Source of the DNA: Anaerolineae bacterium | GTDB taxonomy: Bacteria > Chloroflexota > Anaerolineae > Aggregatilineales > Phototrophicaceae | Direction: 5' to 3' | Assembly: GCA_014879665.1 (NCBI GenBank) | Contig: JACSRP010000114.1 | Span: 1 to 64,000 of the forward strand | Length of the DNA: 64,000 nucleotides | Part shown: one piece after another, positions 49,122 to 53,137 of the stretch | Position numbering within the stretch: the stretch's first letter is position 1 | Layout: the number at the start of each line of letters is the position of its first letter | The notes under the pieces: model-generated | Seen by the model: only the letters and a program-made list of their open reading frames with translations | Told to the model about the DNA's origin: nothing | Databases searched by the model: none | Position numbers and translations under genes: made by a program

Positions 49122-49646
49122 ATGAAGCTAAATGATCTTCAACCCGCTGAGGGATCAAAGACCAAGAAGACCCGCGTTGGCCGTGGTATCTCCGCTGGCA
49201 AAGGTAAAACTGCCGGTCGCGGTACCAAAGGCGCCGGTGCCCGTGGTCGTCATGCTCGCAAAGGCCCGTTCTTTGAAGGCGGTCAGCTTCCCCTCATTCG
49301 GCGTTTGCCATTCAAGCGTGGTTTCACTAATATCTTCCGTGTTGAATATCAGGAAGTGAACGTCGCAGATCTCGATGTCTTTGATGCCGGCACAGTGATC
49401 ACCGCTGCTTTGCTGGCCGACAAGGGCTTCATCCGTGATGCTAAGGATCCGGTGGTGGTACTCGGCAATGGCGATCTCACCAAGAAATTCACGGTGAAAG
49501 CCCACCGCTTTACCAAGACCGCGCAGAGCAAAATCGAAGCCGCCGGCGGCAGCATTGAAAAACTGGAACTGCTGGTGACTGGTGCTCGCGCAACGGTCAA
49601 GAAGCTTCCACAGGAGCAGCTTGCCAAACTGCAAGGCAAACAATAG
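49122..49646 (+). CDS. rplO: 50S ribosomal protein L15
   Basis: 174 residues: MKLNDLQPAEGSKTKKTRVG, the Gly-rich GISAGKGKTAGRGTKGAGAR, and FEGGQLPLIRRLPFKRGF. Late assembly protein of the 50S subunit. It is followed by an unusual structured gap before secY. Confidence 0.98.
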   Translation: MKLNDLQPAEGSKTKKTRVGRGISAGKGKTAGRGTKGAGARGRHARKGPFFEGGQLPLIRRLPFKRGFTNIFRVEYQEVNVADLDVFDAGTVITAALLADKGFIRDAKDPVVVLGNGDLTKKFTVKAHRFTKTAQSKIEAAGGSIEKLELLVTGARATVKKLPQEQLAKLQGKQ

Positions 49647-49661
49647 CATGATTTCTTTAGA

Positions 49662-49748
49662 GCGAGGGTTTCGGCTTGGCTAACGCAGCCAGTCGAAAGT
49701 GAGAGGGGTAATTTTGCCTCACATCACGCCCTCGCGCTTTGCTTTTTT
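49662..49748 (+). ncRNA. predicted three-way-junction RNA element with T6 tract between rplO and secY
   Basis: Read as RNA, GCGAGGG (49662-49668) pairs with CCCTCGC (49729-49735). Inside it are two hairpins placed end to end. TTTCGGCTtGGCT-aacgc-AGCCAGTCGAAA (49669-49698) has 12 pairs with one bulge. GTGAG...CTCAC (49699-49722) has at least 5 pairs. After the closing stem comes GCTTTGC and then six Ts (49743-49748). The ATG of secY follows at 49775. The fold resembles a regulatory leader ending in a terminator. No known family is recognised; the class is unknown. Confidence 0.6.
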
Positions 49749-49774
49749 CTGACGTTAGCACTAAGGACTCTGGC

Positions 49775-51088
49775 ATGATTGAAGGGCTTCGTAACGCCTT
49801 CCGCCTACCGGACTTGCGCAATAAACTGTTATTTACAGGGCTAATCCTGATTATCTACCAGTTTGCAGCGCATGTTCCCGTGGTCGGCGTTGATCGTAAC
49901 GCACTTTCCTCGCTGATCGAAGGCCAAAGTGGCGGCATCATTGGCGTTCTCAACCTGCTTTCCGGCGGCGCAGTTTCCAACTTCTCCGTCATCGCCAACG
50001 GGGTATACCCGTATATCACGGCCAACATCATCATCACCGTGTTGACCCCCGTTATTCCCCGGCTGGAAGAACTCAGCAAGGAACCGGGTGGCCGCGAAAC
50101 CATTGAACGCTACACCTATTATCTGGCTGTGCCGATGGCGATTATTCAATCCGTCAGCCAGATCCAGATTTTTAACTCCCTTGGGGGTCGCCCCATCATC
50201 CCCGGTTTCGGAACCGATCTGCTGCTGACGATTACCGTCATCGCAACCATGACCGCCGGCACATTGTTCGCCGTCTGGATGGGTAATTTGATCACCGAAC
50301 AGGGTATCGGTAACGGCGTCTCCATCATCATCTTCGCCGGTATCGTGGCACGCGCACCCACTGGCATCGCCCAACTGCTCGGCAGCTCCACGCAGCCCGC
50401 GTTTAACCTGATCCAGTTCATCTTGATCACCTTGATCAGTATTGTCGTGATCGTGATCATTCAAGAGGGCATCAGGCGAATACCCGTCCAGTATGGCAAG
50501 CGGGTTAGGGGGCGCAAACAATACGGCGGCGCCAGCACGCATATACCGCTCAAGGTCAATCCGGTAGGCATGATCCCGCTAATTTTCGCGCAGAGCATCA
50601 TTACCTTCCCGGCCTTGATCGTCAGCCTTTTCCCTGATGGCGGCTTAAAAGACACCATCAATATAACTTTCGGCTCGCAGTCCGGGTTCATCTACTGGGC
50701 GACGCTCTTTGCGCTGGTGTTCGGGTTTACCTTCATTTACTCGGATATTCTGGTCAGTAATCAGAATCTCGCCGAAAACCTACAGCGTAACGGCGGGTTT
50801 ATCCCCGGCATCCGTCCCGGTAAGAAGACGCAGGAATATATCCTGAGGGTAACGCGGCGTATCACGCTGATCGGCGCGGTATTCCTCGGCATGATCGCGG
50901 TATTCCCCGGCGTCATCGAGTTTATCAATCGTCTGCTCTTCCCCAGCGAGGTGATCAGCGGTAGCAATAATCCGGCGCTTGTGCTGGGCGGTTCCGCTTT
51001 GATCATCGTGGTTGGTGTGGTCATTGATACGATGCGCCAGCTTGAAGCGCAGTTGGTCATGCGCAATTACGACCGTTTCATCCGCTAA
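49775..51088 (+). CDS. secY: preprotein translocase subunit SecY
   Basis: Channel-forming subunit of the Sec translocon. About 437 residues with ten membrane helices. Family segments: GVYPYITANIIITVLTPVIP, LGGRPIIPGFGTDL, TEQGIGNGVSIIIFAGIVAR and LKVNPVGMIPLIFAQSI. The ORF track begins at a TTG at 49739; I chose the ATG at 49775 because AAGGA lies about eight bases before it and the protein then begins MIEGLRNAFRLPDLRNK. Confidence 0.97.
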   Translation: MIEGLRNAFRLPDLRNKLLFTGLILIIYQFAAHVPVVGVDRNALSSLIEGQSGGIIGVLNLLSGGAVSNFSVIANGVYPYITANIIITVLTPVIPRLEELSKEPGGRETIERYTYYLAVPMAIIQSVSQIQIFNSLGGRPIIPGFGTDLLLTITVIATMTAGTLFAVWMGNLITEQGIGNGVSIIIFAGIVARAPTGIAQLLGSSTQPAFNLIQFILITLISIVVIVIIQEGIRRIPVQYGKRVRGRKQYGGASTHIPLKVNPVGMIPLIFAQSIITFPALIVSLFPDGGLKDTINITFGSQSGFIYWATLFALVFGFTFIYSDILVSNQNLAENLQRNGGFIPGIRPGKKTQEYILRVTRRITLIGAVFLGMIAVFPGVIEFINRLLFPSEVISGSNNPALVLGGSALIIVVGVVIDTMRQLEAQLVMRNYDRFIR

Positions 51089-51127: not shown

Positions 51128-51153
51128 CAAGAGCGCAGCATGCTGCGCTCTTG
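51128..51153 (+). terminator. 26-bp perfect palindrome between secY and adk
   Basis: CAAGAGCGCAGCATGCTGCGCTCTTG is self-complementary over 26 bases. As RNA it makes an 11-bp stem with a CATG loop, followed by CTATTATTT, a modest T-rich run. It may end part of the secY transcripts ahead of adk. Confidence 0.6.
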
Positions 51154-52849: not shown

Positions 52850-52860
52850 TGAGGTACCAT

Positions 52861-52877
52861 ACAGGTTGTCAACCTGT
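52861..52877. repeat. 17-bp palindrome upstream of the rpmJ promoter
   Basis: ACAGGTTG-T-CAACCTGT has perfect 8-base arms and a single central base, a typical form for a dimeric repressor site. It lies 12 bases past the map stop and about 50 bases before the -35 box at 52929. Just after it, CTGAG-GATTAATCCGG-CTCAG contains the further palindrome GGATTAATCC. Confidence 0.5.
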
Positions 52878-52928
52878 GCTGAGGATTAATCCGGCTCAGT
52901 TGGCGAACTAATCATCGAAAACTCACCG

Positions 52929-52957
52929 TAGACGGGGAAACATTTGGCATTTATAAT
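52929..52957 (+). promoter_or_regulatory. putative promoter of the rpmJ-rpsM-rpsK-rpoA segment
   Basis: TAGACG (52929-52934), 17 bases, then a perfect TATAAT (52952-52957), 44 bases upstream of the rpmJ ATG. The -10 box sits in the small inverted repeat GGCAT-ttata-ATGCC. It suggests the alpha part of the cluster can be transcribed on its own. Confidence 0.65.
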
Positions 52958-53001
52958 GCCTCCTCTGTTATTTGGAAACCAAAGTAAGTTAGGAACTGGT
53001 T

Positions 53002-53115
53002 ATGCGCGTGAGAGCATCTGTCAAGCGGCGCTGCCCGAAGTGCCGCGTGATCAAGCGCCATGGTAACGTCATGGTGATCTGCGATAACCCCAAGCACAAA
53101 CAGCGTCAGGGTTAA
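53002..53115 (+). CDS. rpmJ: 50S ribosomal protein L36
   Basis: Too short for the ORF track. 37 residues: [20 protein letters not shown] followed by [17 protein letters not shown]. The zinc pattern Cx2C-x12-C-x4-H is intact, so this is the zinc-bearing form. infA, which usually precedes it, is absent from the map-rpmJ gap. It starts 22 bases before rpsM. Confidence 0.98.
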
Positions 53116-53137
53116 AATCGGGCGGAGAGAAGAACCA

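Follow-up and report, generated by a model that had tools for sequence, protein, structure and literature searches.

Structure of the rplO–secY intergenic region

The DNA analyzed here (a stretch of 64,000 nucleotides, termed the window) carries rplO (49122..49646), an open reading frame with similarity across relatives that encodes ribosomal protein uL15, and downstream of it secY (49775..51088). The rplO stop at 49646 and the secY start at 49775 leave a gap of 128 nt, and these genes and all features described below lie on the forward strand. The initial annotation had proposed a three-way-junction RNA fold with a terminal T6 tract at 49662–49748, and folding confirmed that 49662–49735 adopts such a structure. 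A GC-rich closing stem of 7 bp, formed by a 5′ arm GCGAGGG (49662..49668) and a 3′ arm CCCTCGC (49729..49735) with a pairing probability of approximately 1, or of 8 bp if a U-G pair between 49669 and 49728 is counted, encloses two hairpins. Hairpin 1 (49670..49697) has 11 pairs, with a 12th if T49669 pairs instead with A49698, and hairpin 2 (49699..49727) consists of a four-pair GTGA/TCAC base and six apical pairs flanking a 2 × 3 internal loop, compared with the 12 and at least 5 pairs originally claimed. The junction contains one unpaired base in all, in line with the near absence of unpaired junction bases noted at the outset. The T6 tract is present at 49743..49748 ahead of the secY ribosome-binding site, recognized from sequence and fold as AAGGA (49763..49767), but begins exactly 7 nt 3′ of the closing stem. 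A possible 11-codon open reading frame (MISLERGFRLG; 49648..49683), which is speculative, starts 1 nt past the rplO stop and runs to the hairpin 1 loop.

The predicted minimum free energy (MFE) of 49650–49780 (131 nt) was −45.5 kcal/mol with a z-score of −2.70, an equally good value being reached by 3 of 200 shuffled sequences, and the gap by itself gave a z-score of approximately −3. Among the 34 intergenic gaps of 60–350 nt in the 64-kb window the rplO–secY gap ranked second for structure. Since approximately 30% of the co-directional gaps in the window also had z-scores below −2, the element is best described as strong rather than unique.

The GC-rich stem is stable in the RNA fold, as in an intrinsic terminator, and the fold as a whole is more elaborate than a plain terminator hairpin, as had been suggested. 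Unlike in a textbook terminator, however, the T6 tract does not abut the stem, and a simple terminator scan did not call the element in the window's own genome (G000; other G numbers denote genomes of relatives). Pairing of the intervening 7 nt is possible in G011 and barely so in G000 or G010. The MFE structure of G000 also pairs 49761–49767, containing the secY ribosome site, with 49654–49660. Comparison of the folds indicated that sequestration of this site is not common to the relatives with a similar structure, its unpaired probability being 0.06 in G000, 0.28 in G010, 0.06 in G011 and 0.64 in G004.

Pair preservation and distribution among relatives

The arms were aligned by hand across three to five species, as MAFFT alignments misplaced hairpin 1. 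Between G000 and G010 (Chloroflexi bacterium OLB15, SecY 95% identical) there were 17 substitutions at aligned positions of the element, 10 of them at paired positions, plus one 1-nt indel. Despite these changes G010 retains 27 of the 29 pairs, pairing being preserved at two of them through a double and at four through a single change, and its MFE structure contains the closing stem; hairpin 1 shows such pair-preserving changes, and in hairpin 2 the apex varies with pairing mostly kept. When the same substitutions were placed randomly, approximately 21 pairs were kept (P = 0.0005) and the fold was much weaker (P = 0.001). These comparisons show that the predicted fold has been preserved in the closest relative through substitutions that keep the pairs; compensatory changes were found, but among close sisters only.

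Beyond this pair, the closing stem and the GUGA/UCAC base are invariant across G000, G010 and G011, the last having a longer and otherwise different hairpin 1 and including a GC-to-AT pair change. G004 shares GCGAGG/CCTCGC and the overall topology, its hairpins being unrelated, and in G008 the closing stem is present as a simple hairpin, GCGAGG thus being common to G000, G010, G011, G004 and G008. No conservation was seen among these species in the loops, which are where one would look for a ligand pocket or a protein site. The T-run begins 7 nt past the stem in all four species with the three-way junction, and in G011 the stem can extend up to the T6 tract, producing a canonical terminator.

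The genus was sampled by 15 members including G000. In G009 and G014 the contig begins past rplO, which leaves 13 members with a fully readable gap. Four of the 13 (G000, G010, G011 and G004) had the three-way junction and G008 the simple version; in G003 the rplO–secY gap is 4 nt and the element is absent, and the remaining seven had different, unrelated hairpins. A DNA search of 61 relatives matched the gap only in G010 and, partly, in G011, besides 25- and 35-nt matches in G006. In a pattern search of 101 relatives the arrangement was found at the rplO–secY locus only in G000, G010 and G004; the G011 element exceeded the allowed length, and other matches were chance-like, the reversed-pattern control also giving some. 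In a phylogenetic tree G000, G010 and G011 formed a clade with G008 (support 98/94), and G004 had no settled place.

The element had no Rfam match even at E ≤ 5, which rejects a known RNA family and agrees with the earlier statement that none is described at this position; nor was an RNA element in the rplO–secY gap found described in the literature consulted (mostly outside subscription journals). A repeat element of the REP or MITE type was also rejected, there being no second copy in the genome, where a partial 19-nt match had an E value of 0.19 and the closing-stem pattern occurred once. Alignment of the gap across relatives, proposed as a check on the element, thus revealed that it is not widely kept, and on these sequence comparisons it is lineage-specific and not a conserved leader.

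Spacers and signals around secY

Gap statistics were collected for the 64-kb window and for loci fetched from relatives. The rplO–secY gap was at least 60 nt long in 90% of 143 loci from order-level relatives, a set in which some genomes are counted twice because two collections were used and in which a few gaps are probably mis-measured (for example L028, with a frame break in rplO). The secY–adk gap was at least 60 nt in 85% of 94 cases, compared with 0–26% for the other spc gaps, whose medians were below 30 nt. Among 40 Chloroflexota outside the order, from other families of the class and from other classes, the median rplO–secY gap was 4 nt and 26 of the 40 gaps were 20 nt or shorter, a long gap also being found in a few groups. 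As the gap is generally short outside the order, the long gap was probably derived in this lineage.

Fold tests were performed on sets without similar gaps, the sister G010 being dropped from the z-score set as a near-duplicate. A hairpin below −15 kcal/mol, a threshold applied with no shuffle comparison, was present in 97% of 79 dissimilar rplO–secY gaps, and z-scores below −2 were obtained for 51% of dissimilar rplO–secY gaps versus 2% of secY coding segments; related gaps were counted as independent here and in the tests of directional signals below, so that such counts overstate certainty somewhat. The secY–adk gap had the same level of structure.

Directional signals differed between the two sides of secY. 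In 62 secY–adk gaps TTTTT occurred 31 times versus six for AAAAA, and terminator matches below −12 kcal/mol numbered 47 forward versus 18 reverse, so that this gap clearly carries predicted directional terminators in relatives; in the window it contains a perfect 11-bp hairpin with a T-rich tail (51128..51153), which is terminator-like. The polarity of the rplO–secY gap was mild (TTTTT 17 versus AAAAA 8; terminator matches 47 forward versus 34 reverse), and the flanks of its most stable hairpin had no T/A asymmetry (P = 0.89). Forward −10-like hexamers upstream of secY numbered 20 in relatives versus three in reverse, shuffled sequences giving a mean of 7.6 and a maximum of 13. TATAAT-type −10 sequences were observed in the rplO–secY gap of five loci (L036, L012, L139, L146 and L059), lying inside the hairpin in L036 and L012, and their presence suggests a separate secY promoter in these relatives. 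The G000 rplO–secY gap itself yielded no convincing promoter, promoter-like matches there being no commoner than in shuffles. The initial annotation had assumed that read-through into secY is needed, a premise weakened by the long gaps on both sides of the gene, the terminators behind it and the −10-like sequences before it in some relatives.

Three further observations concern the surrounding genes and the locus set. No infA was seen between map and rpsM (52850–53137), where only rpmJ was read, and the sole infA match in the genome lies on a different contig (G000:C2:793-999). A promoter-like TAGACG-17-TATAAT lies at 52929–52957 upstream of rpmJ and rpsM, in a region where such sites are no commoner than in shuffles. 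Locus L081 (JAHHHY010000003.1), from a metagenome-assembled genome titled 'Pleurocapsa minor', has an Aggregatilineales-like secY that is 86% identical to that of the window and matches genome G011; the organism name is thus probably wrong.

Discussion

We lean, by a small degree, towards regarding the element as one local form of a boundary hairpin that evolves fast and sets secY apart from the ribosomal protein genes. It would influence transcription or mRNA stability: in the nascent transcript it would be a leaky terminator or a pause, and/or in the finished mRNA a 3′-end or processing hairpin, and secY output would be separate from, and lower than, that of the ribosomal proteins. The presence of a stable stem, and not its sequence, would be the target of selection, which would explain why the hairpins turn over between species. 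This reading is favored by the fold and its z-score, the pair preservation in G010, the single copy, the closing stem shared with G011, G004 and G008, the length of the rplO–secY gap and its recurrent hairpins in order-level relatives, the directional terminators of the secY–adk gap and the excess of forward −10-like hexamers; counting against it are the weak terminator polarity, the 7 nt separating the T6 tract from the stem, the lack of a convincing promoter in G000 and the moderate structure present in other gaps of the window. A stable stem precedes secY in nearly all sampled relatives, with terminators behind the gene, so that position is kept and sequence is not, a pattern pointing to selection for the uncoupling of secY; on its own, this particular three-way junction is of little consequence.

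A purely post-transcriptional hairpin, which would shield the 3′ end of the ribosomal protein mRNA from exonucleases or provide an RNase cleavage site without any termination at the T6 tract, overlaps with the boundary-hairpin reading and is possible, if on the unlikely side. Most relatives have stable stems without T-runs, and the T6 tract does not adjoin the stem in G000 or G010, yet the identical T-run spacing in four species and the extendable stem of G011 count against it. A structure with no function, arising by drift in the spacer or left as debris of a small inserted element, would account for the fast turnover, the complete absence from G003 and the occurrence of other structured gaps in the genome; it is made quite improbable by the pair preservation between G000 and G010, the single copy, the absence of a repeat family and the recurrence of a stable hairpin in nearly all relatives.

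The original proposal of a leader responsive to a ribosomal protein or ligand and controlling secY–adk–map drew on the elaborate fold, and the pair-preserving changes, the invariant closing stem and GUGA/UCAC base of G000, G010 and G011, and the pairing of the G000 ribosome site with an upstream segment could be taken in its favor. For a leader RNA one expects a conserved fold with covariation in a broad range of species, always preceding the same gene, whereas here four or five species share the element (4 of the 13 readable genus members with the full junction), G003 lacks it, and it has no Rfam membership. A responsive leader of secY is consequently unsupported, conservation being absent from the element and its loops alike and the ribosome site being paired to differing extents among species, and we consider it improbable. 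Very improbable, in our view, is a translation-coupled attenuator in which ribosomes that have finished rplO start again at the ATG lying 1 nt on, read the short open reading frame into hairpin 1 and melt the junction, allowing transcription to continue into secY. A short frame does occur at this offset in G000, in G010 (MISLLRGFRRG) and, with a different peptide, in G011, but the peptide is not conserved, the start is absent in G004, and a frame so short, which has no regulatory codon run, could easily arise by chance. We would give as little credence to a combined reading in which secY of the order lies in a structured spacer cutting it off from the ribosomal protein operon and the version in G000, G010, G011 and G004 is a translation-sensitive attenuator, with ribosomes leaving rplO setting junction formation and hence the amount of SecY.

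The relevance of the element, on the boundary-hairpin reading, derives in part from the spc operon of E. coli, in which S8 binding at rplE regulates expression; how secY and rpmJ are controlled is described as unclear even in this organism (PMC10931766), and with it the way in which secY is kept distinct from the ribosomal proteins encoded in the same operon. The S8 operator is likewise a structured RNA within a ribosomal protein operon (PMC10931766), but the element described here differs in its position, its lack of an Rfam match and its very narrow distribution. REP and MITE palindromes also form stable intergenic stems, from which the present element is distinguished by its single copy. 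With intrinsic (Rho-independent) terminators and with leaky operon-internal terminators and attenuators it shares a GC-rich closing stem that precedes a T-run, and a location at a boundary within an operon past which less of the gene product is probably required. Unlike them it has a three-way junction in place of a simple hairpin, directional bias in relatives is weak, and the 7 nt between stem and T6 tract in G000 and G010 is longer than usual for an intrinsic terminator. Sites of the his type are hairpin-stabilized transcriptional pauses, and the element, as judged from its sequence alone, resembles them in that the base of its stem lies approximately 8–13 nt upstream of the Ts being transcribed.
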